From a virus, in the IMG/VR virus record IMGVR_UViG_3300032093_000041, positions 1-64,000 of that record: 64,000 nucleotides of DNA, one strand, 5' to 3'. Shown piece after piece: positions 33,132 to 64,000 of the stretch. Every line of letters starts with the position of its first letter. The stretch's first letter is position 1. A program made the translations under genes and the position numbers. The notes beneath the pieces are model-generated. The model was not told where the DNA came from and searched no databases. It saw nothing but the letters and a program-made list of their open reading frames with translations.

Positions 33132-34582
33132 TGGCTGAGACACCAGTAGTAAAGCTTGACGCTGACGGTGAAGTGGTTCAGTGTGCCAAGGGCATGGACT
33201 CTGGCGAGTGTGGCTACACACCTGGAGCAAAGGTATGCGGTAAGTGCGGCGCTGTCGCACAGCAAATGAAGTCAGCTTCAATTGGAGGAATGATGGGCAT
33301 GGGTGGCGGACCTGCTGGCATGCCAGTCGCTACACCAATGCGCAAAAAGCCTCGCCCAATGGGTCCCCCAAGTCTTGACGACGAAGAGGACGATGACCTT
33401 GTTGGCATGGAAGGCATGGAAGAAGACGACATGATGGACGACGAAGACGACATGATGGATACCGAAGACGGCAAGATGATGGGTTACGACGACCTTGATG
33501 ATGATGAATCAGAAATGTACGTCCGCCGTGCGGCACCAAAGCGCAAGCGTAATGTTGTTGCCATGGAAGATGCTGACATGGAAGAAGACATGATGGAAGA
33601 AGAGGACGACATGGAAGACTCCATGATGGCCTCTCGCCAAAAGATGAGAAATCGTCGTCTTGGCAGCATGGGATACAAGTCATCCGAATTTGATAAAGAT
33701 GCATTCCTTTGCTCTTTCGACCGCAAGGTTTACCCAGGCGGTTCTCCTGTTTGTGATTCATGCCCTGGTGGATGTGTTCCAGAAGATGGAATGCCTTCTC
33801 TTCTTGAAGTTGAAGGAATGGCAGAAGACATGTTCAAGGGTAAAGTTCTTGACTCTGGCTACTCCGACGAAGCAGACCTATTTGTGGTTGACATTGAAAG
33901 AAAAGATGGCAAGCCAGTAGAGATTTTCTTCGATGGTTCATCTGGCGAAGTTATGGGATGGCACCTTTTGAACAGCGATTTAGTTGAAGTAAAGTCTGCG
34001 CTTGTAAATAAAGCAATGATTAGCTTTGGCGATGCTGCTGACATTGCGGTAAAGACAGTCACTGGTGACATCGTTGCTGTTGAACCAGACGTATTCGAAG
34101 GATACGACGTTTACGCAGTGGAGATTGACGGCATTAACGGCAAGTCCTACGACGTCTTCGTTTCACTCGATGGTGAAGTTCTTGGTTACGACGAGTACAC
34201 AATGGAAGAAGCAACAGAGATTGAAGCAGAAGCTGCCGAGATTGCTCTGAAGCGTGCTTACAGCGAGGACACTCGTAAGGCAATGTCAGACAAGGGTCAA
34301 GCCCTTCCTGATGGCTCTTACCCAATCGCCGACGAAGCTGACCTTCGCAACGCAATTCAGGCTTACGGCCGAGCAAAAGATAAAACAGCAGCCAAAGCGC
34401 ACATCATGAAGCGTGCAGTTGCTCTTGGTAAAGAAGACTTGATTCCAGTTTCATGGGTTTCAAAGGAAGACATTGAAAAAGCAAAGGCTGGAGAAAAGTC
34501 AGCAGATGACAATTTCTTATCAACGCTGATGGAATTTGAAATGCTCACCGTCGCCGAAGATACAGAAACAGAATCGGAGTAG
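33131..34582 (+). CDS. Acidic multidomain head-region protein (zinc ribbon, PepSY-like repeats)
   Basis: A 483-residue protein from ATG 33131, which overlaps the upstream stop. Residues 17-45 hold a Cys motif ending in CGKCG that looks like a zinc ribbon. A very acidic Met/Asp/Glu stretch follows. A second Cys block (CSFDRKVYPGGSPVCDSCPGGC) precedes two PepSY-like repeats (KVLDSGYSDEADLFVVDIE and YDVYAVEIDGINGKSYDV). The final domain (RAYSEDTRKAMSDKG, then ALPDGSYPIADEADLRNAIQ and AKAHIMKRAVALGKEDLIP) is one often attached to phage capsid-region proteins. Acidity and position suit a scaffold-like or inhibitor role near the protease. That role is not demonstrated. Confidence 0.6.
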   Translation: MAETPVVKLDADGEVVQCAKGMDSGECGYTPGAKVCGKCGAVAQQMKSASIGGMMGMGGGPAGMPVATPMRKKPRPMGPPSLDDEEDDDLVGMEGMEEDDMMDDEDDMMDTEDGKMMGYDDLDDDESEMYVRRAAPKRKRNVVAMEDADMEEDMMEEEDDMEDSMMASRQKMRNRRLGSMGYKSSEFDKDAFLCSFDRKVYPGGSPVCDSCPGGCVPEDGMPSLLEVEGMAEDMFKGKVLDSGYSDEADLFVVDIERKDGKPVEIFFDGSSGEVMGWHLLNSDLVEVKSALVNKAMISFGDAADIAVKTVTGDIVAVEPDVFEGYDVYAVEIDGINGKSYDVFVSLDGEVLGYDEYTMEEATEIEAEAAEIALKRAYSEDTRKAMSDKGQALPDGSYPIADEADLRNAIQAYGRAKDKTAAKAHIMKRAVALGKEDLIPVSWVSKEDIEKAKAGEKSADDNFLSTLMEFEMLTVAEDTETESE

Positions 34583-46000: not shown

Positions 46001-49000
46001 ACCCATTTCAATGCAGGCACCGGATATCGACATAAACGTTTACTCCGACGAGCTTCGCAGAATGGAAGAAAGCGGAGAGTCGATAGAGGCACGCAATGCA
46101 CTTCCACCGATAGATGGCGTATATGACTGGTTGCTCCCAGATAACTTTTCCGCTGGCAATGATTGGTGGGGCTCTGGCGTAAACCAGCAACGAATAGACA
46201 CCCTTAATGCTTCATTACACGAGCTTGGAGGTTCATTCTTCCCGCTCGTATCGCAACGCGATATTGACCGTTTGCCGCAGCTTGCTGAAGAAGGCAGAAA
46301 GTGGCTAGAAGACATAAATGACCCTGACAAGGATTCTGCTCCTGGAGAAGTATCCAACTGGGGTTTTGCCGAATGGAAAGAGTATGGAGGATATACATAC
46401 GTTTACGATTCGAGGAACGAAACAAAACCGCCCATTGCAATCGTAAACAACGAATCCGGCACAACGCACATGATTGGCAAAGATGGCCAACACCTTATGA
46501 CTCTGGTCACGAGAGTGGCTCCATCTGGAGAAACTGTATTTTTGCCCGTTGGCTCAAACTCGACGCATAAACGGCTCGACAACATCACTGAGCAGCCGGG
46601 ATTCTTGCAGACAGTTTTAGGTAAATTCCGTAGACGCCAACAGCAAGACATAAACCCAGAGCAGATTATCCCTGGTCTTCGTTCCAGAGAACGAGCATTC
46701 ACTCGTGGCGACAATACAATTGAGGACGTTCGTTCCCAGTTTGAGAATGGGACACCTTCAGATACGTTCCCATACTCATTTGCAACAAAGCAACGTACTG
46801 GCGCATTAGCTCCAACTTCTCTTACAACTCTTCAGGAGGAGTCACTGCTAGAAGAAGCAGATAAACTGCAGGTACAAATCGCCGATGACTTTAGACGTCA
46901 ATTGGGTCTAAACAAAAAAGACCAACTGACCGAAGAGGCAATCAAAGACCTCATTGATGACCTCCAACGTCGTGGCAAAAAACGCGAAGCTGGAATTGCA
47001 ACAAACAACCTTCACGACCTTGCCGTACTTGATGACATGTTGCAGTCACGAGACGTTATGCATGTCAACAACCTAAAGCCGGGCCGCAGGCATCTACTTT
47101 TAGGCACAAGCGTAAACCCAGTACCAGACTCCGAGCAAAAGCGCCGCCGCGCAATGACGCCAGACATGATTCACGTTTCCAGTGATTCAAGAGCAATGGA
47201 TTCAAGGCTTTCAGACAGAGGGGACACAGACCCAGCAACGTCTAAGAGAACATATCCGAGTGGAGCAATAAATCTCTACGAACCGTCTGAAGAGTCGTTT
47301 ACGCCTTCATCGCCAAGGCCGCAAACTGGACCAGCCCTCATTCCGGGGGAGGGCGATGCTACTGGAACAATTGTTTATCAAAACGGAATGTATTTTGATA
47401 CGTCAACAAACCGTTACGTAGAAGACTTAAGTGGTCTCGATTTTGAATCAGCAGACTTTGTCCATGTTCCTGTTCCTTTAGAGGAATCTTCTACAAACGG
47501 AATCGACGATTTAGGCGGGGAGTTTCCTAAAATTCTTCTTACTTCCGGACCTGGTGCTCCTAGTCGACAATCGGCAGTCATAGCTCCTGGAGTTTCAAGC
47601 ACGAATCCAGAAGCCGCTCTTACTTCTAGGCCAGATGCTGTTAATGCCGTCGTAGCAAAACCGAATTCATTTACCGAAGCATTTTACTTAGTAAGAAATA
47701 GATGGCGTCAGATTGCCGCAACAAAACCTGCCGACCAGACTGAGCCATACCGAAAGCTGACAGACAAGATTGGCGCAGACCCAGCTCCGACTGCATTTAT
47801 GCTGTCGTCGCTGTTGAGCCCGCTTCTTTCTAAGGCAGACGGTCTGGAATCAGAAGAAGGCGTGTCTCTATATTCAGCACCAATTCATTCCCCTACGCTT
47901 TCCGGTAGCGACAATGCCGCAGGAATATTGAGGGCAATAAGAAACGCATCAAGAAAATCACCAACAGAAAACGGTCTTTTCTCTGATTACTTACCTGGTT
48001 CATCAGGCGACATTGTCTCGTATTCTGGTATGGCAGTTGGGCCCCACGCACCCCGTGGGCAGACGGTACTTGACGCAATAGGCGTATTTGCTGACTTGCC
48101 GTTTGAGACTGTTTATATACCGAGCACCCAACCAATAGCTCCAAATGTGGCGCAGCACAATAGTTTAGCGAATGCAAACCGAACATTACTTGATACAAAA
48201 ATATTCCGGTCGCTGAACGCTGCACTCCAGTTGGATTACGCGTCGCAAAAAATGCGTCAGCTGCTGGATAGCGGCACACCACAAGAAATAACTGGCTGGA
48301 ACGACACATGGGGTAAAAGATTCGGCGGAAGATTTGACATAACACAAGCAGATATTGAGTCTGTCGAGCAGCTACGTGATGCAGCGTGGCAGCGTGCGGC
48401 GGAAGACCTTTCGTCCGTTGCTAAAAATGCTGGTGACCGCAGAAACGACTTCCTTAACCAGTGGCGTAATCGCTCCCAATTCCGCCCAGAGAATCGCGAG
48501 ATAGACGCTGAGCTCAGCATTGCCACCGAATACATCACTAATGGTGTTATTGCTGAGCAAGCGGAGTACCTACTCACTAAGCACATACTCACCAATCCAC
48601 GAATAATGCAAAGCCTTGCTCAGTCCGAGCTTGTATCTTTAGAGTCGCGTTCAAGAGAAGCGAACAAGAGAATGGAGAGGCTCGAAGCTATACGTAGTGC
48701 GCAAACCGCACTAGGTAGGCGCTCTATGCCTGGGTATTCACCAGAAGACATTGACCCCATTGAATTATTGCCAGTACTTGATAGACACGGTGATGGTGTT
48801 GTTACAAACGCATCACTGCGCGACCCAGCAGAAATAGTCGAAATATTGTCTGACCACAAATCTCTTGGATTTGGAGCTCCTTTAGACATAGACCCAGCAA
48901 CTGGAGAATATGTTCCATCCATTTTAACCGACGACCAAATGGAAGCATTGGCGCTAATAGATTACTCAATCCGTAGAAATCTAAGCCAAGGAAGTCCAGC

Positions 49001-50411
49001 AGATGAATACGGATATACCGGCATGCCGGAAGCAAACACCGTATTTGGACACCTAGAGCTAGACAATTTACCTCCAGAGAACCTAACTGGCTGGCAACGC
49101 CAATCCCCAGGAGCCGCTGCAGTATGGTCTCTTATGGAGGCTTCTGGATTCAACGGAAACCCACTATTGCTTGATGTAGAAGAATTTAAAGAAATAGCTA
49201 AAATTGAAGATTCATCAGGAAAACGACAAACTCTAGTTGTAACCAGAGGTATCGATTCTCATGGAAGAAACTCAGGAAGTTTTCTCACCAACTTGCTCCT
49301 AAGAGCTAAACGCTCGCTTCTTGGTTCAGGCGGAGCACAGCATGGAACGGGAGAATATTGGAGCGCTCAGCCTTTTGAATGGCGCTCAAACAGTGAGTCT
49401 TCGGCAATCGGAATGATTGTGCGCGGAAATCACAGGGTAGGTTCGCATGAATTGCTCGTAGGTACCGACAGCTCAGCAAGAACTAACGGCTCGAATGGTA
49501 TCTTGTCGGATTTATTTTACGAAGCCACGTGGGCTGTTGCAAACGCACTTGGTGCAAGAGGTTTCGGCAGCGGTACAAATCCTAGTCACGGACAAGAATA
49601 CGCAGCAGATATCCCAGTTAATTCAGTGAAAATAGACCCTGTTACCGGACTGTATGACCAGGCCGACCTGGATAACCTACAACTAAAAATCCTGGAACTG
49701 ACCAGGGCGTTTGACCCATCACAAGGCCTCGGTAGCGCTGGCCTGATGACCCTTGAGAAGTGGGCGGACAGAAGAAATTTTGTTACAGATTCCATAATCC
49801 CAGACCTTGCTGGTGGAGCTGCAGCTTCAAACTTCGACCGCAATGAGTCAGCAATCAGGGAAAGGCAATTTTTAAATGCCTGGCTTGGCCAACACTTGAG
49901 CTGGATGGTTCAACTGGCACAAATGCGACGAGATGAGTCTGACCGGGTCAACGGAAAGGAAAACGCTCAGTGGAATAGGCGTCTAGATGCTGCTCAGCAC
50001 TCCATCGTGATGATGGACCCAAATGCCAGAGCAGCAATGATGGGGTATGACGTTCTGATTAGACATGACCAGAACAGTCATAACTGGAGCAGCAGGAGTC
50101 AATACGACACAGACGCCAGTTATAGGTTTGGCGATTATGATTTCTGGGAGCAAGACAGCAGCAGAATAACACTCCATAATCCGAAAGTGTTGCTGATGTT
50201 AAACAGAACAGCCACTCCGATGCTGAGGCGTGTCCATTCTTCTCAGACATGGGCCGTTAGAAGCAACCGGAGCGGAGGGCATTTCCTTGATGGGTCAGGA
50301 CTGACAATCGCAGACATATTGCAGGAGATACCAGCAAATCCAACAACACCTGAAGAACAATATATCGCCGATACTCTTACTAGGTATATAGAATTATGGG
50401 GCGGACTATGA
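43059..50411 (+). CDS. Polyprotein B: 2450 residues, ISGRM motif and C-terminal ADP-ribosyltransferase-like domain
   Basis: Starts one base after the previous stop. Near residue 181 is the RCP-GGQFTN-C motif. Basic, charged helices follow to about 350. One ISGRMS motif occurs at residue 867, splitting the protein into about 870 and 1580 residues. The last 400 residues fit an ADP-ribosyltransferase: R2063 in VVTRGIDS, then H2095-G-T-G-E-Y-W, a GTNPSHGQEYA segment, G2329-Y-D (MMGYDVL) and N2382-R-T (LMLNRTATP). The GYD and LNRTA pair is typical of ART domains in phage head-associated proteins. The middle ~1000 residues are unrecognised, with some DRHGDGVV calcium-like loops. The function is inferred. 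Confidence 0.8.
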   Translation: MKQISLVKDKIDGSPFAVLLIDKGSVTAYGSPGQGEDWAEWVNSQETSVEEIQDVLDVRLVAEPSIPAKKFNESSISSYLGQEAMDLLMAELNKKALLEIVQVKSESQPQEYDEEDLPDYTPISVWPLSEISLASIDVAYKSQLADYKAKAFNADRNRRALALEVKWARAIWDNDRQGWRCPPETTNGGQFTNRMGLGCTTGLVRRLGQSLMSIEDRNKLQMQLPGLEDPRGFLYRSGSLIDQRAETRQREFADRQERRAARRVRSLIEKEGKKEQERLAKENKRKHRSGESLRDIYSSFTPDASRVSRARAAGAVKLRRFASNVEQESLRNIGASQQRRDRRVRDVSEEKLDSKKIRKLRDFGGKIPGSKLGGYVQYDKMMADDKGQAVDINGELMVPRVLVDMDEMHSNPYYGREFLTDDSGNQVENFHANHKWVTVEEVLAMASINRATKPAHDWIEMRKGRGFPGDETIEFVEAKELRKIQKDNGFIGVRSSLKDKGKGRFDGDTRGKGKKKTKPAQGGSIGDMEFEPDELPPTVAKRFGDAWRDSRKRLGSWIANLDPLLDEDQKTRREKRRRQKASKSKDSSAINGANILQSLFSDIDDPIEATVRYAQLSNFKEPEFRDWYDYTTNNKPVPERREDWNFGFNSVIGEPTPHFARLKNLIDGIVSEHAAGVLITADDSEDPDITKFIFQDYDFSTKFRSGQIGNVYNVRVVTRTDGVEEVRQIAVDSISLNRWTDNPLDENRQPITATDAGLYMLWSNTTFLDVPEDVVERAASGQMPTFELVELAAKQWVDPGYHGAQPPAFYYDQATKWHEHYRVIGFNQKGAPLYIKGAGGRGRTGSTSVHIPGTSNSVVDTRTGGLISGRMSQETIITPEGQRALDDPNVNIWTGEQNFLVLDGGPAPGRGRRRRRTSGPTPQSPGVVSRFLDGEGRQLSRERRSARRMLKGRTPKDTRPIRQRIEAALYERSRRRSGEPRPISMQAPDIDINVYSDELRRMEESGESIEARNALPPIDGVYDWLLPDNFSAGNDWWGSGVNQQRIDTLNASLHELGGSFFPLVSQRDIDRLPQLAEEGRKWLEDINDPDKDSAPGEVSNWGFAEWKEYGGYTYVYDSRNETKPPIAIVNNESGTTHMIGKDGQHLMTLVTRVAPSGETVFLPVGSNSTHKRLDNITEQPGFLQTVLGKFRRRQQQDINPEQIIPGLRSRERAFTRGDNTIEDVRSQFENGTPSDTFPYSFATKQRTGALAPTSLTTLQEESLLEEADKLQVQIADDFRRQLGLNKKDQLTEEAIKDLIDDLQRRGKKREAGIATNNLHDLAVLDDMLQSRDVMHVNNLKPGRRHLLLGTSVNPVPDSEQKRRRAMTPDMIHVSSDSRAMDSRLSDRGDTDPATSKRTYPSGAINLYEPSEESFTPSSPRPQTGPALIPGEGDATGTIVYQNGMYFDTSTNRYVEDLSGLDFESADFVHVPVPLEESSTNGIDDLGGEFPKILLTSGPGAPSRQSAVIAPGVSSTNPEAALTSRPDAVNAVVAKPNSFTEAFYLVRNRWRQIAATKPADQTEPYRKLTDKIGADPAPTAFMLSSLLSPLLSKADGLESEEGVSLYSAPIHSPTLSGSDNAAGILRAIRNASRKSPTENGLFSDYLPGSSGDIVSYSGMAVGPHAPRGQTVLDAIGVFADLPFETVYIPSTQPIAPNVAQHNSLANANRTLLDTKIFRSLNAALQLDYASQKMRQLLDSGTPQEITGWNDTWGKRFGGRFDITQADIESVEQLRDAAWQRAAEDLSSVAKNAGDRRNDFLNQWRNRSQFRPENREIDAELSIATEYITNGVIAEQAEYLLTKHILTNPRIMQSLAQSELVSLESRSREANKRMERLEAIRSAQTALGRRSMPGYSPEDIDPIELLPVLDRHGDGVVTNASLRDPAEIVEILSDHKSLGFGAPLDIDPATGEYVPSILTDDQMEALALIDYSIRRNLSQGSPADEYGYTGMPEANTVFGHLELDNLPPENLTGWQRQSPGAAAVWSLMEASGFNGNPLLLDVEEFKEIAKIEDSSGKRQTLVVTRGIDSHGRNSGSFLTNLLLRAKRSLLGSGGAQHGTGEYWSAQPFEWRSNSESSAIGMIVRGNHRVGSHELLVGTDSSARTNGSNGILSDLFYEATWAVANALGARGFGSGTNPSHGQEYAADIPVNSVKIDPVTGLYDQADLDNLQLKILELTRAFDPSQGLGSAGLMTLEKWADRRNFVTDSIIPDLAGGAAASNFDRNESAIRERQFLNAWLGQHLSWMVQLAQMRRDESDRVNGKENAQWNRRLDAAQHSIVMMDPNARAAMMGYDVLIRHDQNSHNWSSRSQYDTDASYRFGDYDFWEQDSSRITLHNPKVLLMLNRTATPMLRRVHSSQTWAVRSNRSGGHFLDGSGLTIADILQEIPANPTTPEEQYIADTLTRYIELWGGL

Positions 50412-50799: not shown

Positions 50800-53700
50800 A
50801 TGCTTATTGAAAACGAAGACGAGAAGCCTAGGAACAGAAAGCTTCGACGCAACAAAAAAAACTGGGAAAAGCTTAGAGAAAAACCAATTGTCGCTATCGA
50901 TACCCTGTCTGGTGGCGGTCTTGTTTCAGGTCAAATATCGGGCAAAGCTCTGGGAGGACGCATAGGTCGTCGTATTGGTGGAGCCTCTAAGCCAATGGAT
51001 ATGAATCCGACTACAGCAAGAGACGCCGACATGGACGGAATGGTCTTAGAGGGCATACCAACAATTCGCCAAGGAAGAGGAATGCCAGACCCCACACCGG
51101 GAGGCGAAGTCGCCGGCCGAATGGGCAGGGAGCAAAATAAAGAAGAGTTTGTAGGTGTAGACAAGCTTTTGCGCCAACATTTTTCACAGTTTGCAAAGTT
51201 TCAAGAATGGACGAAAAACAAAGATTGGAACGCATTCCATAGAAACCATTTTGACTGGTGGATGTTTCCAATCCCTCTCGGTTCTAATTCATATAGGGAT
51301 GAGTACAACATTGCCGGGGAACCGCTAGAAGAACTACGGCAAAACAAACGCTACATGGCAACGCTGGCGAGCGCAATGAGGATGTACACACGTTCAATCG
51401 GCTGGGACATGGACAGTCAAGAGTGGATAAATAACGCCGAAATAGAACGTGGGCAAGAGCCAGTTAGAAGCCTTAATCGTGCTCGCTTACTCAAAATTGC
51501 CCAGTCAGCTGAAGCTCATGGTCTAGATAATGAACTTAGCTCGATGAGCCACATGGTCAACGACATGCGTTCGAACGGCATCCCAACCGGAAATGATGAA
51601 TACTGGAATTCTATTTCTGGAAGGATGAGCAATCCTGATAGACCAAATTTTCCACTTAACCCAAAACAAGGCGACACTTTCTCTTCAGATGACCCAGAAG
51701 ATACAAGAATATGGAAATTTGATGGAAAGTTATGGGTTAGGCAAGACGGAGGCGGAAGACGCTCCGCGACAGTTGGGTTCCGTAAAGCCGGTGGCAGCGG
51801 GGGTAAAAGTATATCTCCATCAGCTTCTTCTATTAGGGCTGGTTCAGAAAGAACTGTAAAATATGGTTCGCCAGCTTTCGATGAGCTGTGGGAACGCCGC
51901 GACAAAGAAAACGAACAGGCGGACGGCACCAACCTAACATTTGACTGGAAAAATGAAGAGTCAAGGCTTTACTACTTATCAGTATTTGGCAAATTTCCCA
52001 ATACTCATCCTAAAAATAGAAAAAAAGTGGGATGGGCAAAATTTGGTGGGGGTAACGAGCCTGGGAATTATTCTGGGGGAACTCACTCCTGGATTGCTGC
52101 AGTAAAGAATCAATTGCGTGAACTTGGAATTTCACTCGTCCCACAAGAACACCCTAAAATGGGGGACCAATATGGAAGCTGGATTTCTTTCTCCGGCAGC
52201 CCTGGTGCGTCTGCTGCAGAAGGAGCATCAGCAAAACAGCTGTTATCTCATCTTGCAGAAACAATTAGCCCTGATACATTCTATGAACACTTTGAAGCTT
52301 GGATTAGAAATCCATTTGTAACAGCACAAAAAAACGGCAAAGACGTTGGCGTAAGACTTGCTTTCAACAATGATAAAGAAAAGCTTTTAAATGAATACCG
52401 GCGTAGAGTTATAGCGCTACGAGATGCATTGTACTCTCATTTTGGTAACGAGGTTGACGAAGTTGCCGAAACAATGGTTAAGCCCCTAACAGACTCATCA
52501 GGAAAATCCAGCACCAATACTGGGAACGATTGGGTAGACCTAACAGAAAATGCTAGATGGGCTTCCAACTTAATCAAACAACAAGTATCAAATATTCTTG
52601 AACAAGAAAAACCTCGCAGCGAAGAACGCCTTGCATATCTTTTAGATTCGCGACTGCAATCAAAGCTACCTGATGAAATAAGGCAACAAATACGAACATC
52701 TCCTAGTTTTATTAGAGGCTTGCTTCAAGAAGAATTCAAAAACAGGGACTGGGGGAGAGGAGATAATTTCTCCCAAATAGATTTAATGCCCTCCGTTGAT
52801 GACGAAACGGTGTCCCTGATTGAAGAATTAGCTGACGAATTTATAGAAAAACTAATAAGCGAAAATGCCGATGTGAGCGTAGTAAGTGACGCAGATTCTA
52901 AAAATTTCATTGATTCATTTGTTCAGGATTCCTCAATGCGGACATCCGCAGCAAAGCCGATGTTGCAGAGCAAACTCAGCAACAGAATAGCTAGAGGACA
53001 AATTTCTGGGAAAATGGGAAATACCCCAGAAAATGACATAGAAGCGAAAGACCTTGAATACGACCCCGACACGCCAGAGCATTTAGGGAACCATTTCACA
53101 TCGAAACATGAAGGGTACGACGTTAGGCCTAACCCTGTAGACAACGTCTTGGATGCGCGCAATACCGGCGCACCACTGGAGTGGCTCGTACCAGGTTCGT
53201 ATCACCCAGAAATAAAAGAATTAGTCAATGGGCTGACGGACAAGGTATTGGAGCTTGGGTTTGCTAGTTACCTACAAACAAATCCAGACTTCTACATGGG
53301 CTCTAAAGATACCGCTGGTCGCGATGCAGCATCGGAATTCAGAGGTTGGCTCGGAGGATGGATTGGAGCAACTGTTTCCAAGATAATGGCCTTGGGTGAT
53401 TTTGGTGAAGATTTTGAACTAGACGACGGTCATAGGGACTTCATAAGAAATTTCGTAGGAGACATGGCCGACACAATGACCCGCTTCTCTGACATACCGC
53501 GTGAAGACCCTGACGGTCGTGGCGGCAACACAATGCAAGTGCTTCGTGGCCTTATTTCTCGTGTTCCTGGATTTGGTTCAGGGGGAAGTATGACAAGCGA
53601 CCTAAGTCAAGAAGTAAATGACATAGCCAGCGGACTAGCAATGCGGGCCATACACGCAGGGTTAAAAATCAACAACATGCAACGTATGGGTATTAGCGAT

Positions 53701-54603
53701 AGACGTAGGGCGAACCAAGACACACTTGACTGGTGGAACTCTGCCATAGGCGCTGGCCTGCTTTCTACATCTCCTAGCGATTATGAGTCGATAGACGATA
53801 TTGGATACGAAAACCTAATGAAAGAGTCGCAAGTATCTGTGGCCATGCCTATTAATGCTGTTTTAAATATGTTTGCTGATAACGAGTTTAAAACGCTATT
53901 TGAAACAAACACCAGCCAAGGCAATGTCAACACTTCAGCTCGGGCCGCAGCAGAATTTGCGATGTTCGGAATCCTCCCCTCATATAAGGGGAAGAGGCCT
54001 GCTTACGGAATTTTGCACGTCGGCGGAATGACAGAAGATGCAATAAAAAACACGAACCAGTACGGACCCATAAGAATTGTCCTAAACCCCGACATGAATG
54101 AAAAGGTTACTTGGACAGAAATTGACTCACTGTCCTTGATGTCAACAGCTTCAACGTTAAAGAACCCGTCACAGCATGGGCTTTTTGGACAAAGGCTTAC
54201 TTCTGACACCCCCTTTACAAGGGTTTCGGCAGCCGACATTATCTCTCTTATCGAGCGTGGCCGAGATGTATCAAATAGCGCAGACGACAAGAGTGCCATA
54301 GGTAGGTCCAAATATGCAGAAGCTCAAATTCATTCAAAGATAACTCTGGAAGACATTCAATACATTGTCGTTGACGACACCGACTTTAGATGGGGGGATA
54401 TTGATTTTCCTCCATTTGGTCCTGATGGGATGATTCTGATGCAGGACGACGATGGTTATGAGGAAGCAGCAGATGAATTTCCCGATGACATTATGGATTA
54501 TGAAGGATTTATTCAGATATCCAAAATTGCAGAATCTCTTAACATTCCCGTTGTTCTGCTCAGTGATATAACAAATGCTGGCGAAGAGGTGGTGAGGCCG
54601 TGA
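50800..54603 (+). CDS. Polyprotein C: 1267 residues with three SGRM/AGRM-type motifs
   Basis: Begins two bases after the preceding stop. N-terminal cassette at residues 68-104: MNPTTARDADMDG, then EGIPTIRQGRG and DPTPGG, followed directly by AGRMG at 105. ISGRMS at 272 is followed by NPD, and ISGKMG at 735 by NTP; an ISGKA occurs at 46. Between 735 and the end is a helical region (TMQVLRGLISRVPGFG) and then a domain near 1068-1175 (AYGILHVGG, YGPIRIVLNP, YAEAQIHSK) shared with polyprotein A. The C-terminus is very acidic. The 272-735 segment has a KLWVRQDGGGRR beta-turn start and is otherwise unknown. The cargo role is inferred. Confidence 0.8.
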   Translation: MLIENEDEKPRNRKLRRNKKNWEKLREKPIVAIDTLSGGGLVSGQISGKALGGRIGRRIGGASKPMDMNPTTARDADMDGMVLEGIPTIRQGRGMPDPTPGGEVAGRMGREQNKEEFVGVDKLLRQHFSQFAKFQEWTKNKDWNAFHRNHFDWWMFPIPLGSNSYRDEYNIAGEPLEELRQNKRYMATLASAMRMYTRSIGWDMDSQEWINNAEIERGQEPVRSLNRARLLKIAQSAEAHGLDNELSSMSHMVNDMRSNGIPTGNDEYWNSISGRMSNPDRPNFPLNPKQGDTFSSDDPEDTRIWKFDGKLWVRQDGGGRRSATVGFRKAGGSGGKSISPSASSIRAGSERTVKYGSPAFDELWERRDKENEQADGTNLTFDWKNEESRLYYLSVFGKFPNTHPKNRKKVGWAKFGGGNEPGNYSGGTHSWIAAVKNQLRELGISLVPQEHPKMGDQYGSWISFSGSPGASAAEGASAKQLLSHLAETISPDTFYEHFEAWIRNPFVTAQKNGKDVGVRLAFNNDKEKLLNEYRRRVIALRDALYSHFGNEVDEVAETMVKPLTDSSGKSSTNTGNDWVDLTENARWASNLIKQQVSNILEQEKPRSEERLAYLLDSRLQSKLPDEIRQQIRTSPSFIRGLLQEEFKNRDWGRGDNFSQIDLMPSVDDETVSLIEELADEFIEKLISENADVSVVSDADSKNFIDSFVQDSSMRTSAAKPMLQSKLSNRIARGQISGKMGNTPENDIEAKDLEYDPDTPEHLGNHFTSKHEGYDVRPNPVDNVLDARNTGAPLEWLVPGSYHPEIKELVNGLTDKVLELGFASYLQTNPDFYMGSKDTAGRDAASEFRGWLGGWIGATVSKIMALGDFGEDFELDDGHRDFIRNFVGDMADTMTRFSDIPREDPDGRGGNTMQVLRGLISRVPGFGSGGSMTSDLSQEVNDIASGLAMRAIHAGLKINNMQRMGISDRRRANQDTLDWWNSAIGAGLLSTSPSDYESIDDIGYENLMKESQVSVAMPINAVLNMFADNEFKTLFETNTSQGNVNTSARAAAEFAMFGILPSYKGKRPAYGILHVGGMTEDAIKNTNQYGPIRIVLNPDMNEKVTWTEIDSLSLMSTASTLKNPSQHGLFGQRLTSDTPFTRVSAADIISLIERGRDVSNSADDKSAIGRSKYAEAQIHSKITLEDIQYIVVDDTDFRWGDIDFPPFGPDGMILMQDDDGYEEAADEFPDDIMDYEGFIQISKIAESLNIPVVLLSDITNAGEEVVRP

Positions 54604-54826: not shown

Positions 54827-57800
54827 ATGACTGATACGCAGAACATAGACATTGAGCAAAAAGACGTTCTTGGGGCTCCGCGCAGAGTGCGCACTACCGA
54901 CCCGGACGTTTTCTCTGACCCAGAATCGGCCAGAGTTGCTGCGCGACGTCTTGGATGTATTGGGATTAGAAGATATCTAAACCGCTCAGGCGGAGAGTCA
55001 TGGATGCCATGCACCAATGAGTCCGACTACAGAAAATATAGCGGGATAGGTGTTTCTGGTCGTAGGTTCCGACGCCAGCAGCTGGAAAGAGATATCAGGC
55101 AAATCACCGGCCGAGGCAAGCTTGCAAAGAAGACTTTAGAAGAAGCTGTCGAAACGAAAGCAAGCAAAAAAAATAACTACACAAAGCCGGAATTGCGCGA
55201 GAGAATCAAGCAGCGAATTATGGCTGGCTCTGAGGGTGGAGCCCCCGGACAGTGGTCTGCAAGAAAAGCGCAAATGCTCGCTCAGGCGTATAAAAAAGCA
55301 GGTGGCGGATACAAGACTGGCGGAAAAAGCAAAACGCAACGTTCGCTTTCTTCGTGGACTAAAGAAAAATGGACCACGAGCGACGGTAAAAAAGCTCGCA
55401 GAGGTAGCTACACCAGAAGATACTTGCCAGCTAAAGCGTGGTCAAAGCTGACACCGGCGCAAAGAGCGGCTACCAACAGGAAGAAAATACAGGGTTCTCG
55501 CAGCGGAGAACAGTTTGTCCCTAATACGGATGCGGCAAGAACGGCACGCAAACGTTCAGTTAGGGGCGTAAAACACGTTGAGTTTTATGACGGCATCGAA
55601 ACAAAATCAATCGATGGTCTGATAGAGGAAAAGGCATTATCTCGTCGTTCTTCCAGAAGAACTCTTAGAACTCCTGGTGCGTTGCGTCCTAGATTGGGAG
55701 CAACCGGACAGGATATGAATCCCGCAACAGCGAGAGACGAAGACCTAGACGGCTTAGTTCTTGAAGGAATTCCCACAATTAACCGTGGTCGCGGTGTAAT
55801 TGACCCAACCCCGGGCGGAAGACCGAGTCGGTGGGTGCCAAGAATGCGGCCTCAAAGGACGCAAGCGCCAACACCGGAAGAAAAACCTCAGCCTCGTAGG
55901 CAGTTGCTCCAGCGACCAGAAAGATTGCCAAAACCAAAGGCTGAAAAAGTACGCGAATCTAAACTTAATTGGCTCCCAGAAGATGCTGATAAATGGACAG
56001 AAGACGATGCCCAGAGGTTGCTCGATACGCAAAAAGCTTCCGGTCTTTCTTACGGTGAATTTGCAAAACAGAACGGACTTTTTGCTAACGACGTTCGTGA
56101 ATCAGTAGAAAGACAAAAGTCTCGACGCAAAAAGCGCATCAGTGCTTTTCGCAAAAATAACCCCAAACTTTTTGCTGCTGTTAACAGTTTTGGAGCTGTT
56201 AAAGACGAGGCAATGGAAGCGGTTTCTAGAGGAAAAGTTAACAACTGGGGCTCACTTGTTTCATGGGCGTTTAAAGACAATGACTTAAAGCGCCAAAGAC
56301 TAAACGACAGGGCGGTAAACGACCTATTTAACAATGTGTCAAATGGTCTTGACCCAGACGGAAAGTCAGATGTAGTTCTTGGTTTTGTGCCGTCGCGCAC
56401 GAAACAAGGAGAAATGACTAAGACTTTTGCCCGAGCAAACAATCTTCCCGATGGTTTCGTTAGTAGATACAAGACTCCGAGAACAGCCATACAGCCAGCT
56501 AGAAGAATTACTTCCACGGCCGAACGAGCAGAACGTCGTGGAGAGCGACGCGTTGGAAGAATAAGCAGAGACATAGAGGCAACAGCTAGGGCGTTTGAAA
56601 GGTTTGACGCTATTTCCGGCCGCATGGGTGGGATATCAGGACGCATGGCAACACCGTCTGGCCCAGACTCACAGTGGACAAACCAAGAAAAAGCACAGTG
56701 GAAAGCCGGTCAGTGGCGTAAGAGGTTCCTCTTCGATGAAGCCCTAAGTACTGCAAGGGTTAATTTATCACCTGAAATGCAGGCACATATTGCCAAGTAT
56801 CCTGATGCCGCAACTGCAGCAAGAGCAATCCTTGACCTATCTGACCAAGATTTAGACAAGCTGTTCAAGGGTCATAATGACGCGCTCAAAGCAGCGAACG
56901 TAGCCATTAAACCTCCAAGAAAAGATGAACTTCCGCTTCTTCCGTCTGAAGTTGCTGCAGCAGCACAAATCAAACGTCCTCTCGTTAGAAGCTTCCTTGA
57001 TGAGTACAAAAAAATGGCACCGAATGGGACTTTGTCGCGTCTTGATGTTGACGTACTCTCTAATGAAGACATTGAAGAACTGTTTAATCGCTACATACTG
57101 CCAGAGATGGTCGACCCAACAAAGCTCGATGCTGCTGGTGTAATTGATGTTGCCCAGAGAATTTCTCAACCGGGCCAAGAAAATTCACCGCTGCGCCTGC
57201 TGGACAATCTTGCATATATGGCCGGCGACGATGCGATGAGCCTGGAAGCAAGAAGAAGAGTTCTTCAAGAAAAACTTGCCGCTGGTGTTGCTCAGGGAAC
57301 CATGACCCCGGCTCAACAGCAGGCAACACAAAATGCGCTTGATGCCCTAGATGAAGAACTAGCAAAACTAATAGCTGACTACGAAGCTGGAAAGCCTTTA
57401 GATTCGTCTATACCGTTGCAGCCTTTAGACGACCCGAGGCAAATGCCAAGATGGGCTGGCGGACGTAGGGCGCTTAGTTTTGAAGACCCAGTAACAGCAG
57501 ATGATTACATCATGTTTTTGTTGGAAAACAATGACATTGGCTTCCACCCAGAATGGGGTCCAATCACCAAGCCTGAATGGGAGAACTGGTCAGAAGACAT
57601 ACAGGAGAGGGCCGCAGAAGCAGAACGCGTCTATAGAGAAGGCGGAGAACTAGAAGCTAAAGACGCCATAGACGCTTTGAATGCAGAGTATCAGCAATGG
57701 ACACAGGTTGGTCTTGAGGCAGGATGGATTCAAGAGCCAGAAGAAGACGAAGAGTTTGAAGAACCGCAGCCTGAGCGCCCAATACGTGATGAGTTTGGTG

Positions 57801-60800
57801 TTCTCGATGAAGATTGGGTATGGAACACAGAACACGGTTCCCCCGAAGAGCTTGGCGTAACCGACGACCCAGCAACGTGGGCTCAACACCCGGACAACGT
57901 CGAAGACGACGGCGTAACCCTAATCCCACTTGACGAACTAGAAGAATTGATTCTCAAGTATGCGCCGAAACAGTTTCAAGCTGACCTTCTCGAAATACTA
58001 AAGCCAAGTGAGTGGACAGACCCACACAACGGTCATATCGACCAAAGATACATTGACCTCCCGCCCGAATTAATTGATTATTTTGTCGGACAAGCAATGG
58101 GAACAATGCCGCCGACCCCATCAAGCTCAGGACAGATGCCAACACCAAACCTTGGTGGAATACAAGGTGATGGAGTTGGACTTTCCGACCCGGGCGGACC
58201 AAGACTTCGCAAGGGCATACCTTTTATACCAAGGAACATCAACTGGGACTCTGCATTGCGCATGTTCCAGCGAATTCTAAATAAACAAGGAAAACAAGCA
58301 TCGTCAAAAGGCTCTTATGCAACTGCAAGTCGCCAGTATGACCCAGCACTTGGTGTTTATGACGACTGGGGTGCACTACAGCTACAGAACCAGTTTGTAG
58401 AGGCTGCAAAGGAAGCCCGCGAGCTTTACGTTACGGGAACTGGACAAGATTCTCGCAAAGCTCGAGAGCAGGTTTGGAACCTTCTTCAATCAGGAAGAAC
58501 TCCGCAAGAAATAAGCCATGAACTGATTATTTTTGGTGCAGACCAGCCGGACACAAATAGGCCTCCTCAGCCAATTGATTTGCGTGACTTGGTTAAAGCT
58601 GCAGCAACACAGTACGCAATAGATAACAACATCAAAACTTCAGATGTAACAAAACTTCTCAATGCAGCAGACCAGGCTTTCAATTCTGATACAGCGCGTC
58701 AAGAGGCGTTTAGGAGAAGCCAGCTTGAGCGCTTGCGTGACGACCTAACCCGTCTATTTAGCGGCCAAAGCCCACAACAAATCATTAGCTCTATTGATGG
58801 TCTGATTGAAGAAACAGAAAGAAAGAAATGGTTTGCTGACCAGGCATACAGAATTGAACGCGGACATGATGCTCGGTTAAGAAAAGCCGCTCTTGACCTT
58901 GCTGAGTCATATCCTGTTCCAACCGCTCGTCGCGCAATATTTATGGAACCAGATGGGACCATAACTGACAGCCCAAGCCGTAGAGCAAAAGCCCTCTATC
59001 AGGAGCCATACACTGGCGAAGTAACTGACGACGACACGAGGGGATGGCCTCAGGCGTTTGATGAAGGTTATGACCCAACACAAATAAGTCGGGCACGCCA
59101 TGCTAACCGCATATATCGCTGGTGGAGACAAAACTGGGGTTACATCGAGCGAAACGAAAATGGTGAAATTACTCGCGAATATGTAGGTCCGCTGCAGGGA
59201 ACACTAAAGGCTCATCAGCTTCACGCACGTAAATACGGAAACGAAGGTCTTGCTGGAACAACTGCGTATGCAACAAGAACAGCAGATTCTCGAGTCCAGC
59301 AGCTTCGTGAAGTAAAAAGAACCATAGAGGGGGCGCGGCAAGAGGGTCGAGGCATGGGAATATCTGGCTTCATGCGAAGCGGTGGGCCGAACCTTTACGA
59401 TGAATATTCACGGAAAGCAGCTCGCGTACTTGTTTCGGGACGCCGCAAAAACAAACCTTCATCAATGCTGCTTGGCTACGATTCTGACGAAATGCCAATT
59501 ACAAGAGCAATGAGGACGGCATTTTCTGGAGGAAGTGGGAAGTTCCTTGGAGCATCTAATGAGCATTCATTTGCTGCATTAATGAACCCCGAGAACGTTG
59601 ACTACTTTAAACATCTATCACCGGTGGAGAAAGACTACTTTAGAGCCCTCTACTCAAATCCAGACTTTGTCGTTGCCGTATCAAAAGATGTGACTGCACC
59701 GCTGCCGAACAGAACACGCGGTGCTTCCACCGTCTCCCCAGACGAAGCAATAATAAATGCATTCCGTTCGTCTATGGATGCAACGCGACCAACGATTTCT
59801 GGTCAGATGGGATTGAGGAGAACGCTAAGCAACGCTAGCAGAGTTGCAAGATACAACCCTGAGAGATGGCAGCGAGAATATTTAACAGCTAGAAATAGTT
59901 TCCGGATGACCTCGCCTTTCAGGGGCAAGAAAAAGCAGAACTACAAGCTTGAACAAATAACTCTGAAAGACAGCGTTTTTAAGCCAGTAGAAGGTCTTTA
60001 TCTTGTAGATGCAGATACAAAAAATGTTATCGACGGACCTTTCAAATCAGATGAATTAGGTTTATTGGCCAGTGAAAAAGCCAAGGGCGCAGAAACAAGC
60101 GTTATATCTAAAAATTATCCTCGTCCATGGGAGCAAATGCCTGAGATTCAGGAGCTAATTGCTAACGGCGTGAGTAATGAATTGCGTGATTTTATGACGC
60201 TGGACTCACACAAGATAAGCGACATACGCAGCACTGTTTACGACACTATTGAAGGCAAAATTAACCAATATGCACTAGACCTTGATAAGGGCGTCCCACA
60301 GAAAGCGTCAGATACGGCAATATTTAGTCGCGACCCTGATACGGGGGCGCTAATGGTTCTTCTTATACAAAGAGCGTTCGGTCCACACAAAGACGATACC
60401 GGTGCATGGGTTCTCCCTGGAGGGTTTGCTGACCCTGGCGAAACCGCACTAGAGACAGCATTGCGTGAACTAGAAGAGGAAGTAGGACTAAAAGTAAGTC
60501 CGACAGATGCGCGCGTTAAGCAGATAGGAACAATAACAGCACCAGACTGGGATGTGCGCTTTACAAAAGGCGTAGAGGTCAGTGGTACTGCGTTGTTTGT
60601 ATCTCCAGACGCTGCCTTTAAGGCTGGAGATGACGCGCTGAGAGCGCAATGGTTCCCTGTTCAGGATATAGCGGACGGAAAACTTCCAATCGGGTTCGGA
60701 CATGTCGCGTGGATTAAGAACGCTATGGCTCTGGAAGTTGATGACCCGGCAAACTATGGTCCTGACTACGAAAGTTTAAGAACAGGTTTAGACCGTGTTG

Positions 60801-63800
60801 AAAGAGCAACGCGTGCTAGGAATAAAGAACTAATTGAAATTTCAAACAGCTGGCGCAAAGAACTGAATAAAGGCAGAGCAAAAGCCGACAAGATAAAACT
60901 TTTTGACGAAAAAAACCTTGGTTCATATTCCGCTTGGGAACTAGCTCCATCAGACGACATGATGAGGCTCGGCTCAATATCCCGCATGAGGCTAATGGGC
61001 AGAGAGGTAACTCCAGAATCTATTGCCGCGGACGTAGAAAGAACCCGTGAAAACCGTCTATCCAGAGTTGGTTCAAATTTTGGTCCGTCAATATCTGGAC
61101 GCATGGGTGAAGGGTTTGAAAACAACATGAACGACATGCACTTAAGAGGCATGTCGTCTGACGAAATAAAAAATAAGCTGCGCCAAGAAAATGGCGTCAG
61201 TGAAGAGGATATAAATCGTTACGTTCTCTATAGCGGAATACAGTTGTCTAAAACTTCAGACAATGTTTCAGCTTCAGAGCGAAAAATGTTTGACGAGATG
61301 ATATCCAGCGGAGGCTCAATTAGAGACTTGGCAAAAAAGAACAAAATATCTTTTACGGAAGCAATGGATGTTGTTGTAAAAGTAGAGTCTTCAATCGGCA
61401 ATAGAGAGCCGGCCATAAATGCAGCATTGCGCAAAGCAATTATGAATGATTCTTTTATTTCTGGAGCAGAAAAAGCGGCGATGGTGCAGCGACTACATGG
61501 AGCATCGCGTGCCTCTGTAGCAAAATTTATGGGTATGTCGGTGGAGCGATACGGGGAAGTAGAAGCATCGATAATAGACAACCTAAAAGCTCGCAACCCG
61601 AAAATGTTTAAGTCTGCCGGTGCATGGTCTTCAAATCCAGAATCCTTATTTGCAGAACAAGATATTTTTATGCGTTATGTTCATGGCAAGCAGCCACTAA
61701 ACCGCATAGCAGAAGACCTTGGCATGACCGAAAAAATGGTCGATGGCATAGTAAAGCGATACGCCAGATGGAAAAATTCAAATGCTCCTCTAGAGAGAGC
61801 AGCAATCAAACAATCAATTTCGCAGTTTGGTTCAGCATTGAACGCTGGTGAAATTCAAATGATGCGTCGCTTGTCGGACGGAGAAAATATATTCCAATTC
61901 TCCGAAAGAACAAACATGCCGAAGAAAGCTGCAATACGCATGTATAACTCGGCAATGCGTAAAATGCATATGGAATCCGGAGTTTCTCCTCTTTCAAGAA
62001 ACTTTGACGCCAACATATATAAGGCGATACCTAAAGAGTGGATTTCTCCGTCATTCTTGTTCGAAAAAAATCCACCGAAGGCAACTAGGGCAATATCTGG
62101 CAAAATGTCAGACGTAGCAAAGAGCGCTAACAAATTTAACGCAGAAAAACGTTCTTACATGACATCCCCTATGTCTGCTTTGCGCGAAAAAGTAAAAGAT
62201 ATTCGCCAGGAAATGAGAGACCAAATACAGAATCTTTCATCTACGTCGGCTTATATGCATCCAGTATTTGGAGGGCAAGAAGGCATAGACAAAATGGCGG
62301 CGCTCGGTGCTTACATAAAAAGGACAATAGATGAATCTGTCCTAGAGGCTGTCGTGGATGCCGCACGAAAGTCAGGCTCACGGTTTTCAGGAGATAGAGA
62401 AGAAATTGCTAAGCGAGCAATGAATAAAGCTCGCAAATCTTTGATGGAAGATTTGTGGATGAAGAGAGAAATGATTGATTTTTCTCTCGACATGCATGAA
62501 ATGATTGAATCCGCATCTTGGCCATGGAGAATGTGGCAGCCAGACAGTCCTGAATGGCAGCGCCATAGGAACATCCCAGAGCTGATGGAAACATACAAAA
62601 CGAACACGCCAAAGGGTCGCCAGGCATATATAAATGCCGGCTTCTACATGCCGCTTGGCGATAATGAGATGTTTGAATTCCTAAATGCTGTCGAGGAAAA
62701 CAATTCCATTAGCGGGAGAATGTCAAACCCGAGACAGTGGGCTCAATCTAGAGACCTATACGACATAATTGGAGTTTCGGAAACAGCAACAGACGAAGAG
62801 CTAAAAAAAGCCTTTAGAGCTAAATCTCGCGTGCTTCACCCAGACGTTAACAATTCTCCAGATGCTACTGAGCAATTCAAAGAACTTGGATTCGCATGGG
62901 AAACACTAAGCAATAGCAGGTTAAGAAACCAATACGATTCATGGCGAGCAGGACGAACTTCACGCCAATCTTCTTCGGCGAGACCAAATAACACAGACAT
63001 TGCTGACGATGACATTGACGTAAGTCAATACACAGACCAAGACCTATATTTATATGACGATAAGGGTCGCCTATGGCCGCGGCATAACGCAAATAGAGAC
63101 GACTGGCCTACCGCTCCGTTTACTCAGTCAACCGTGTTCCCGCAACGCCAATGGGTCGAAAAAGAATTTGACGAATGGTCAGACTGGACTCGCCACGGCA
63201 TACAGCCATCACGCCCAGCAGGAAGTGCTCTATGGGGTGAGGGTAGAGGTACGCGAGACCTTGGTGGTGACGGTGAGATTGATGACGATGGACAAGGAGG
63301 ACCTGGCCCATCTTCTGGACCTCGTGGGCCATTTAATCCAACTTCAGGTAGCCCTGCTAATGCCTACTTCGTAGAACAACAAGTTAGGCGTGACCTTGGT
63401 CCGGATGCAACTGACGAAGAAGTGCTAGCTGAGCTAATCAGGAGAATGACCGGTGGTGGGCGTGGCCCATCAATGAGCTCTTCTCCTGGTTCAATATCGG
63501 GTCGCATGTCATCGTCGTTCCCTCCTCTTGATGACAGCGTTCAAAAACGTCTTGGATTGCAAAATCTTCCTAGTTCATATGACCAATCTGAACTTACGAA
63601 ACAGCATCCAAAACTTACGTTTGATGTTTACAAAGCCAACATTGGCGAACCATCTGTTGAAGTAACCACAACATTTGGCGGAAAGTCAAATGTCAGCAAG
63701 TATCGCTACGACAACGTTTATCGCCCCATTATTGATGCATTGGTAGCAGGAGTACAACGCCCTACTGGAGGAAAGCGTAAATTTGTTTCAGTTGGTGGGC

Positions 63801-64000
63801 CAGCTGGTTCAGGCAAGACTACAGACAGAAAAACCGGCGCTCACAATATCCCAACACCAGGGTTTGCGCTCCATGTTGATGCTGATGAAATAAAAACCCT
63901 TCTACCCGAGGCAAGAGCACTTCATGCTGCCGGAAACCCAATGTGGGCGAATGCTGTTCACGAAGAATCACGTGTAATAGCGGACCTTGCACTGCAAGAA
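54827..64000 (+). CDS. Polyprotein D: giant frame open at right edge, with DUF5872, Nudix, HTH, J-domain and zeta-like kinase parts
   Basis: At least 3058 codons with no in-frame stop; the 3' end is outside the window. C44 and C62 lie in a GCIG…WMPC motif. Residues 118-245 form a DUF5872-like domain (PGQWSARKAQML, GSRSGEQFVPNT). Residues 297-333 hold the MNPATARDEDLDG/EGIPTI/DPTPGG cassette. Processing-type motifs occur at 596, 603, 1657 (SGQM), 2089, 2423 (SGKM), 2628 and 2890. The Nudix box is at 1866-1888 (GFADPGE…RELEEEVGL), with four HTH-like helix pairs at 2163-2375. A J-domain begins at 2643 with HPD at 2671-2673. A P-loop (VGGPAGSGKTT) is at 2989-2999, followed by D3018/D3020 and an EES helix as in zeta toxins. 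Domain calls are strong; joint function as cargo is inferred. Confidence 0.85.
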   Translation, partial: MTDTQNIDIEQKDVLGAPRRVRTTDPDVFSDPESARVAARRLGCIGIRRYLNRSGGESWMPCTNESDYRKYSGIGVSGRRFRRQQLERDIRQITGRGKLAKKTLEEAVETKASKKNNYTKPELRERIKQRIMAGSEGGAPGQWSARKAQMLAQAYKKAGGGYKTGGKSKTQRSLSSWTKEKWTTSDGKKARRGSYTRRYLPAKAWSKLTPAQRAATNRKKIQGSRSGEQFVPNTDAARTARKRSVRGVKHVEFYDGIETKSIDGLIEEKALSRRSSRRTLRTPGALRPRLGATGQDMNPATARDEDLDGLVLEGIPTINRGRGVIDPTPGGRPSRWVPRMRPQRTQAPTPEEKPQPRRQLLQRPERLPKPKAEKVRESKLNWLPEDADKWTEDDAQRLLDTQKASGLSYGEFAKQNGLFANDVRESVERQKSRRKKRISAFRKNNPKLFAAVNSFGAVKDEAMEAVSRGKVNNWGSLVSWAFKDNDLKRQRLNDRAVNDLFNNVSNGLDPDGKSDVVLGFVPSRTKQGEMTKTFARANNLPDGFVSRYKTPRTAIQPARRITSTAERAERRGERRVGRISRDIEATARAFERFDAISGRMGGISGRMATPSGPDSQWTNQEKAQWKAGQWRKRFLFDEALSTARVNLSPEMQAHIAKYPDAATAARAILDLSDQDLDKLFKGHNDALKAANVAIKPPRKDELPLLPSEVAAAAQIKRPLVRSFLDEYKKMAPNGTLSRLDVDVLSNEDIEELFNRYILPEMVDPTKLDAAGVIDVAQRISQPGQENSPLRLLDNLAYMAGDDAMSLEARRRVLQEKLAAGVAQGTMTPAQQQATQNALDALDEELAKLIADYEAGKPLDSSIPLQPLDDPRQMPRWAGGRRALSFEDPVTADDYIMFLLENNDIGFHPEWGPITKPEWENWSEDIQERAAEAERVYREGGELEAKDAIDALNAEYQQWTQVGLEAGWIQEPEEDEEFEEPQPERPIRDEFGVLDEDWVWNTEHGSPEELGVTDDPATWAQHPDNVEDDGVTLIPLDELEELILKYAPKQFQADLLEILKPSEWTDPHNGHIDQRYIDLPPELIDYFVGQAMGTMPPTPSSSGQMPTPNLGGIQGDGVGLSDPGGPRLRKGIPFIPRNINWDSALRMFQRILNKQGKQASSKGSYATASRQYDPALGVYDDWGALQLQNQFVEAAKEARELYVTGTGQDSRKAREQVWNLLQSGRTPQEISHELIIFGADQPDTNRPPQPIDLRDLVKAAATQYAIDNNIKTSDVTKLLNAADQAFNSDTARQEAFRRSQLERLRDDLTRLFSGQSPQQIISSIDGLIEETERKKWFADQAYRIERGHDARLRKAALDLAESYPVPTARRAIFMEPDGTITDSPSRRAKALYQEPYTGEVTDDDTRGWPQAFDEGYDPTQISRARHANRIYRWWRQNWGYIERNENGEITREYVGPLQGTLKAHQLHARKYGNEGLAGTTAYATRTADSRVQQLREVKRTIEGARQEGRGMGISGFMRSGGPNLYDEYSRKAARVLVSGRRKNKPSSMLLGYDSDEMPITRAMRTAFSGGSGKFLGASNEHSFAALMNPENVDYFKHLSPVEKDYFRALYSNPDFVVAVSKDVTAPLPNRTRGASTVSPDEAIINAFRSSMDATRPTISGQMGLRRTLSNASRVARYNPERWQREYLTARNSFRMTSPFRGKKKQNYKLEQITLKDSVFKPVEGLYLVDADTKNVIDGPFKSDELGLLASEKAKGAETSVISKNYPRPWEQMPEIQELIANGVSNELRDFMTLDSHKISDIRSTVYDTIEGKINQYALDLDKGVPQKASDTAIFSRDPDTGALMVLLIQRAFGPHKDDTGAWVLPGGFADPGETALETALRELEEEVGLKVSPTDARVKQIGTITAPDWDVRFTKGVEVSGTALFVSPDAAFKAGDDALRAQWFPVQDIADGKLPIGFGHVAWIKNAMALEVDDPANYGPDYESLRTGLDRVERATRARNKELIEISNSWRKELNKGRAKADKIKLFDEKNLGSYSAWELAPSDDMMRLGSISRMRLMGREVTPESIAADVERTRENRLSRVGSNFGPSISGRMGEGFENNMNDMHLRGMSSDEIKNKLRQENGVSEEDINRYVLYSGIQLSKTSDNVSASERKMFDEMISSGGSIRDLAKKNKISFTEAMDVVVKVESSIGNREPAINAALRKAIMNDSFISGAEKAAMVQRLHGASRASVAKFMGMSVERYGEVEASIIDNLKARNPKMFKSAGAWSSNPESLFAEQDIFMRYVHGKQPLNRIAEDLGMTEKMVDGIVKRYARWKNSNAPLERAAIKQSISQFGSALNAGEIQMMRRLSDGENIFQFSERTNMPKKAAIRMYNSAMRKMHMESGVSPLSRNFDANIYKAIPKEWISPSFLFEKNPPKATRAISGKMSDVAKSANKFNAEKRSYMTSPMSALREKVKDIRQEMRDQIQNLSSTSAYMHPVFGGQEGIDKMAALGAYIKRTIDESVLEAVVDAARKSGSRFSGDREEIAKRAMNKARKSLMEDLWMKREMIDFSLDMHEMIESASWPWRMWQPDSPEWQRHRNIPELMETYKTNTPKGRQAYINAGFYMPLGDNEMFEFLNAVEENNSISGRMSNPRQWAQSRDLYDIIGVSETATDEELKKAFRAKSRVLHPDVNNSPDATEQFKELGFAWETLSNSRLRNQYDSWRAGRTSRQSSSARPNNTDIADDDIDVSQYTDQDLYLYDDKGRLWPRHNANRDDWPTAPFTQSTVFPQRQWVEKEFDEWSDWTRHGIQPSRPAGSALWGEGRGTRDLGGDGEIDDDGQGGPGPSSGPRGPFNPTSGSPANAYFVEQQVRRDLGPDATDEEVLAELIRRMTGGGRGPSMSSSPGSISGRMSSSFPPLDDSVQKRLGLQNLPSSYDQSELTKQHPKLTFDVYKANIGEPSVEVTTTFGGKSNVSKYRYDNVYRPIIDALVAGVQRPTGGKRKFVSVGGPAGSGKTTDRKTGAHNIPTPGFALHVDADEIKTLLPEARALHAAGNPMWANAVHEESRVIADLALQE

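Follow-up and report, generated by a model that had tools for sequence, protein, structure and literature searches.

P0002 and its domains

The stretch of DNA analysed here (the window, 64,000 nucleotides) corresponds to bases 1-64000 of the virus record IMGVR_UViG_3300032093_000041, which is 105,678 bases long. An open reading frame (ORF) on its plus strand, P0002 (P2), starts with an ATG at position 54827 and remains open for 3058 amino acids (aa) up to the window edge at 64000. An earlier, sequence-only reading of the window had described a very long single frame with unrelated domains in one register and had suggested extending the contig to find the stop and a following capsid gene. Both were located: in the record the frame stops at position 66610, giving a protein of 3,927 aa, and the major capsid gene lies 3' of it at record positions 66936-68279 (Phage_capsid match, 2e-41). 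Four giant ORFs of 1,267-3,927 aa belong to a head module, and P0002 closes the series; it lies between the prohead protease and the major capsid gene, that is, in a structural, late gene context. The features of P0002 are the following.

54827-64000, onward to record 66610, plus strand: giant ORF P0002, 3,927 aa
54926-55021, plus strand: putative N-terminal anchor, a DUF3721-like Cys stretch; same slot kept in relatives
55157-55552, plus strand: DUF5872-like basic region (phrog_17747 and phrog_14910)
56612-56647, plus strand: motif pair ISGRM-GG-ISGRM (residues 596 and 603)
59360-59374, plus strand: motif ISGFM (residue 1512)
59795-59809, plus strand: motif ISGQM (residue 1657)
60317-60676, plus strand: NUDIX domain (Pfam E 7e-16)
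61091-61105, plus strand: motif ISGRM (residue 2089)
61664-61768, plus strand: weak HTH_28 match (0.014, under the Pfam cut-off)
62093-62107, plus strand: motif ISGKM (residue 2423)
62708-62722, plus strand: motif ISGRM (residue 2628), 10 aa upstream of the J-domain
62753-62938, plus strand: DnaJ J-domain (Pfam E 1.5e-18)
63494-63508, plus strand: motif ISGRM (residue 2890)
63761-64000, to record 64228, plus strand: Zeta_toxin-type P-loop kinase (1.1e-17 with the whole ORF read)
past the window edge, plus strand: further motifs in the sequence at residues 3326, 3613, 3621 and 3785

Among the domain types named from the sequence alone, the DnaJ, NUDIX and P-loop kinase assignments were firm. 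The DUF5872-like region scored 0.002 in Pfam, under the cut-off, and was firm in PHROGs (phrog_17747, 3e-21; phrog_14910, 7e-17), while the helix-turn-helix units came down to the single sub-threshold HTH_28 match. A GNAT-like stretch past the window edge gave a weak Pfam match. The remark that this domain mix is unlike that of tail or replication proteins was borne out. The protein is very long for a phage, as had been supposed, but not unique: further relatives carry ORFs of 3,280-4,736 aa within the same head module, and the counterpart in the relative G001 is an unbroken ORF of 3,462 aa.

Comparison of P0002 with G001 gave a ratio of non-synonymous to synonymous differences (pN/pS) of 0.30 for the whole ORF and of 0.18-0.52 per unit, with synonymous sites near saturation; judged from these sequences, purifying selection is acting on every unit of P0002. 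The long ORFs of the relatives and this selection speak against a chance frame or a chimaera. A split of the frame, which had been named as the observation that would speak against a single protein, was seen in one sister contig of the same species (IMGVR_UViG_3300008107_000063; L087 / L214; 99.7% identical), in which a 26-nucleotide deletion affects codons 1476-1484. This deletion is either a genuine variant or an assembly error, and a search for same-species contigs spanning the site gave only the two already known. Since G001 retains codons 1476-1484, the open form of P0002 is the older state.

A repeated motif between domains

The core motif, ISG[RKQ]M, is read in P0002 as repeated ISGRM(G/S) and is placed between domains. 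Cutting the protein at its motifs would divide it into pieces of 142-909 aa and two short spacers. The head-module ORFs (12,096 aa) contain 18 copies of ISG.M, where 0.11 would be expected; none of 1,000 shuffles gave more than two. A scan of the whole record assigned 17 copies to the four giant ORFs and one to the protein P9, with none outside P2, P3, P4, P5 and P9 (none elsewhere in 22.8 thousand aa). The sequence-only reading had treated P0002 as one odd protein and had overlooked that it is one of four in a protease-bearing head module with a shared, repeated inter-domain motif; this motif explains the odd domain mix of P0002.

The gene order upstream of P0002 is terminase (minus strand), portal, S78 prohead protease with DUF6321, PepSY protein and giant ORFs.

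28189-30477, plus strand: portal protein
30568-32925, plus strand: S78 prohead protease with DUF6321 (Peptidase_S78 E 3.5e-11; S78 domain at 30568-31130); one SGRMGG-like site at about residue 323
33092-34582, plus strand: PepSY-domain acidic protein, conserved between the protease and the giant ORFs
34857-40028, plus strand: giant ORF P3, 1,723 aa, with an HExxH metallopeptidase-like N-terminal part, RNase_T and a C-terminal unit
36273-36287, plus strand: HExxH of P3
37368-37910, plus strand: RNase_T of P3
37080, 37218, 38070 and 38547, plus strand: motif copies of P3
40997-43057, plus strand: P9, 686 aa, conserved, with one ISGSM at 42680
43059-50411, plus strand: giant ORF P4, 2,450 aa, with ISGRM at 45657
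50800-54603, plus strand: giant ORF P5, 1,267 aa, with DUF3626 at 53866-54405 and the motif at 51613 and 53002

The 18 copies of the motif have 18 distinct DNA sequences, with serine codons drawn from both the TCN and the AGY families, so it is the peptide that is under selection. Repeats or recombination sites at the level of DNA were ruled out, as every copy differs in DNA. The idea that translation starts internally at the ISGRM Met was also rejected: the Arg codons are mostly CGC, which is not Shine-Dalgarno-like, and the LSSG, STRS and GLAS motifs of other lineages (see below) contain no Met.

The position of the motif follows domain boundaries. In seven viruses none of 147 motifs fell inside a Pfam domain, compared with 21 expected, and the motif often precedes a domain by 2-10 aa (2-3 aa for ArdcN, 7 for KTSC, 10 for DnaJ). 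When the P2 proteins of G000 and G001 were compared, a 452-aa insertion or deletion was found with both edges at motifs; clean large events of this kind between close pairs numbered only four, too few for statistics. With motifs masked, 94 of 569 homology-block edges lay within 15 aa of a motif (43.9 expected), and decoy masks did not attract edges (40 versus 45 expected). The enrichment was restricted to comparisons within motif classes. The C-terminal unit of P3 behaves similarly: in five viruses it is a separate gene without the motif, and in eight viruses with the unit fused, the virus's own motif sits 8-49 aa upstream of it.

Two further elements are shared by the giant proteins. A Cys tag, RCPxGx5[QR]F[TN]x5C, is common to P3 (35307-35363), P9 (41387-41443) and P4 (43599-43655) and is kept across lineages; it is also kept in some relatives without the motif. 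The DUF3721-like anchor is retained in the P2 slot even in relatives with a P2 ORF of only 219-390 aa. Tag and anchor are candidate head-loading elements.

Relatives, motif classes and host

A capsid search identified 313 related stretches in IMG/VR, and the protease-to-capsid region was taken from 23 relatives. In these syntenic relatives the gene order is kept and domains are shuffled among slots, with lengths of 460-4,736 aa in the protease slot and 219-3,927 aa in the P2 slot. In many of them the S78 domain is N-terminal within the giant ORF itself, as in the 4,736-aa ORF of G005 (L185:1-14211), where S78 is followed by sigma70 region 4, KTSC, UvrD helicase, RNase_T, ArdcN and MPTase-PolyVal. 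The last two domains are found within the protease slot or next to it in G003, G005, G014 and G018.

Most relatives have one dominant short motif per virus. The ISG/ITG/VSGxM class comprises G000, G001, G002, G004 and G007; GLSSG is found in G003, RFSSG in G014, RLSSG in G016 and G018, STRS in G013 (35 copies) and GLAS in G017 (15 copies). In all 14 viruses tested the virus's own motif class was present in 9-35 copies, compared with fewer than 0.5 expected. The classes are nearly mutually exclusive and their distribution follows the capsid-plus-protease tree. Dozens of sites in several proteins change together, which points to one trans-acting reader. The STRS-motif giant ORFs of G013 (L174, L175) also contain pentapeptide-repeat domains, a possible gyrase-mimic payload.

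The host of this uncultured phage is probably an actinobacterium, because a capsid relative with 88% identity lies in a contig of an Actinomycetota metagenome-assembled genome, the record codes for a Transglycosylas (PF06737) protein, and Gordonia and Brevibacterium are the hosts of its nearest cultured relatives. The minus-strand portion of the window codes for a contractile tail (sheath, baseplate wedge), and a 994-aa minus-strand protein at 14-2998 matches collagen-like and other tail-fibre families. DUF6321 (window 31147-31364), fused to the protease here, gives a match of its own downstream of the capsid gene in several relatives. The PepSY protein contains very acidic Met-rich stretches, and in its C-terminal region it is similar to the C-terminal end of the capsid maturation proteases of Gordonia phages. 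No relatives of P9 were found among cultured phages.

Proposed cleavage of the giant proteins and other readings

From the operon order, the inter-domain placement of the motif, its conservation at the protein level, its replacement from lineage to lineage and the shuffled units, we infer that P0002 is a head-module polyvalent polyprotein that is packaged and cut at its ISG[RKQ]M linkers (S78 being the likeliest protease), and whose domains are injected. We assign this reading a probability of about 0.55. The giant proteins would be made late and would enter the prohead through their anchors, the Cys tag in P3, P4 and P9 and the DUF3721-like anchor in P2. Cutting of the linkers would follow, with the operon's own S78 prohead protease as the most probable enzyme, and would give about a dozen separate domains; these would ride in the capsid, enter the cell with the DNA and act there on host defence, RNA, nucleotides and translation.

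S78 is the first candidate for the protease because it is adjacent to or fused with the giant proteins and turned up in every one of the 25 records searched. Its presumed H, S, E triad is intact in every relative whose region aligned.

Several observations weigh against this reading. The lineage motif was looked for in the major capsid proteins and was not found there, and the S78 domain is about 70-80% identical across relatives while the motif changes greatly; both argue to some degree against S78 as the protease. Four relatives show no clear motif. Homology edges between different motif classes were not enriched overall near motifs (18 versus 19.2 expected), and in five other viruses with a fused P3 C-terminal unit (G002, G010, G011, G013, G015) the motif lies more than 70 aa upstream or is missing. 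Finally, a shared docking peptide could yield much of the same pattern.

In such a docking arrangement the motif would stay uncut and serve as a short peptide that attaches the giant proteins at many points to the surface of a scaffold, capsid or portal, co-evolving with its partner. Lineage-wide replacement and inter-domain placement suit any trans-acting reader, and the proteins do sit in the head module. However, docking would not need a motif tied so closely to domain and fission/fusion boundaries, and the separate Cys tags and anchors already resemble loading signals. We consider docking unlikely, at about one chance in five.

Cleavage could instead be due to a metallopeptidase (the HExxH protein P3, or MPTase-PolyVal in relatives), acting in the virion or after injection. 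The HExxH and a downstream Glu of P3 are invariant or nearly so, MPTase-PolyVal accompanies ArdcN in the four relatives named above, and autoproteolysis has been proposed for polyvalent proteins (PMC5512222). On the other hand, the zincin fold of P3 is unconfirmed: the model has a predicted local distance difference test (pLDDT) score of 62 and gave no match in the PDB by Foldseek, VIA-align or sequence. In addition, the motif-bearing G013 and G017 had no MPTase-PolyVal match in the proteins scanned, compared with S78 in every relative searched. A metallopeptidase is an improbable agent; an HExxH enzyme of P3 and a docking motif are the rivals to S78 cleavage that deserve attention.

It is very improbable that P0002 is simply a multidomain virion protein that stays uncleaved and has linkers biased in composition. 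The motif-bearing linkers had low confidence in an AlphaFold model of the J-domain/kinase stretch, as this reading would have it, although the model was weak throughout (mean pLDDT 46, 4 sequences); the shuffles, the mutually exclusive motifs and the serine codons, which come from both families, rule out composition or DNA repeats as the origin of the motif. That P0002 is an assembly artefact, or a set of separate genes fused through lost stops, is scarcely credible, as the frame-splitting deletion in one sister contig stands against unbroken giant ORFs from numerous independent assemblies and against purifying selection along the whole frame.

By its domains and its genomic setting, P0002 belongs with the phage polyvalent proteins. 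These proteins of phages and conjugative elements have 2-15 domains and an embedded peptidase, and injection with the DNA and proteolytic release have been proposed for them (Iyer et al. 2017, PMC5512222). P0002 shares with them many unrelated effector domains per polypeptide, domain shuffling and a phage late-gene context. Their hallmark domains ArdcN and MPTase-PolyVal are present in relatives; P0002 itself had no match to either, and P3 has only the HExxH. Unlike in the polyvalent proteins, one virus-specific motif runs here across several proteins of a prohead-protease operon; a text search of PMC5512222 brought up neither linkers nor interdomain motifs.

In T4 and SPN3US, head proteins that are ejected are processed by the phage protease at a single short motif (PMC9026906, PMC10052503). 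As in the T4 gp21 system, a prohead protease lies here in the head module (PMC9026906). The T4 internal proteins, which include an ADP-ribosyltransferase, are packaged and injected and are cleaved at a short motif (PMC9026906); unlike P0002, each is encoded by its own small gene and has a short N-terminal propeptide for targeting. In phiKZ and SPN3US one short motif (S/A-x-E) likewise recurs over several head proteins, and the proteases perform auto-cleavage and multiple cuts in one propeptide (PMC10052503, PMC5694885). Their cuts, in contrast, mainly strip propeptides, their motif ends in Glu and there is no string of effector domains. The capsid protein, the usual substrate of such a protease, lacks the lineage motif here; it may be cut elsewhere or not at all.

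The nearest cultured phages by capsid (about 45-48% identity) are the Gordonia Chidieberevirus/Bendigovirus phages and the Brevibacterium phage Cantare. Their module is similar, with a portal gene, effector-like genes, an S78 protease and the capsid gene, but their payload is mostly in separate genes and there is no comparable repeated motif. The Gordonia phage DalanDe (L171:14937-19838) has a 1,633-aa capsid maturation protease with a long N-terminal extension and no repeated motif, and offers a tractable outgroup. Pol A of Thermocrinis Octopus Spring virus has also been termed a polyprotein, with a helicase domain that is separate in relatives; unlike P0002 it is a replication protein, and in the parts of the source consulted no repeated cleavage motif was found (PMC7689252). 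The new part, within the open-licence literature, is the shared lineage-specific inter-domain motif that is replaced in concert, of which no description was found there.

More broadly, the data would be compatible with a lineage of tailed DNA phages in which giant virion proteins are cut into at least a dozen free effectors by a head protease at a virus-specific sequence, with the cut-site code and the protease specificity co-evolving at dozens of sites; this proposal is tentative, and we hold it at slightly less than even odds. If true, tailed DNA phages would have arrived, in a form not yet described for them, at the polyprotein strategy familiar from RNA viruses, and would use it to bring in many early effectors together. 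The motif would then be a simple rule to divide viral dark-matter ORFs into functional units and would help to find new anti-defence or host-takeover domains. Motif switching between close relatives would also provide a natural set in which to study the joint change of a protease and dozens of sites.
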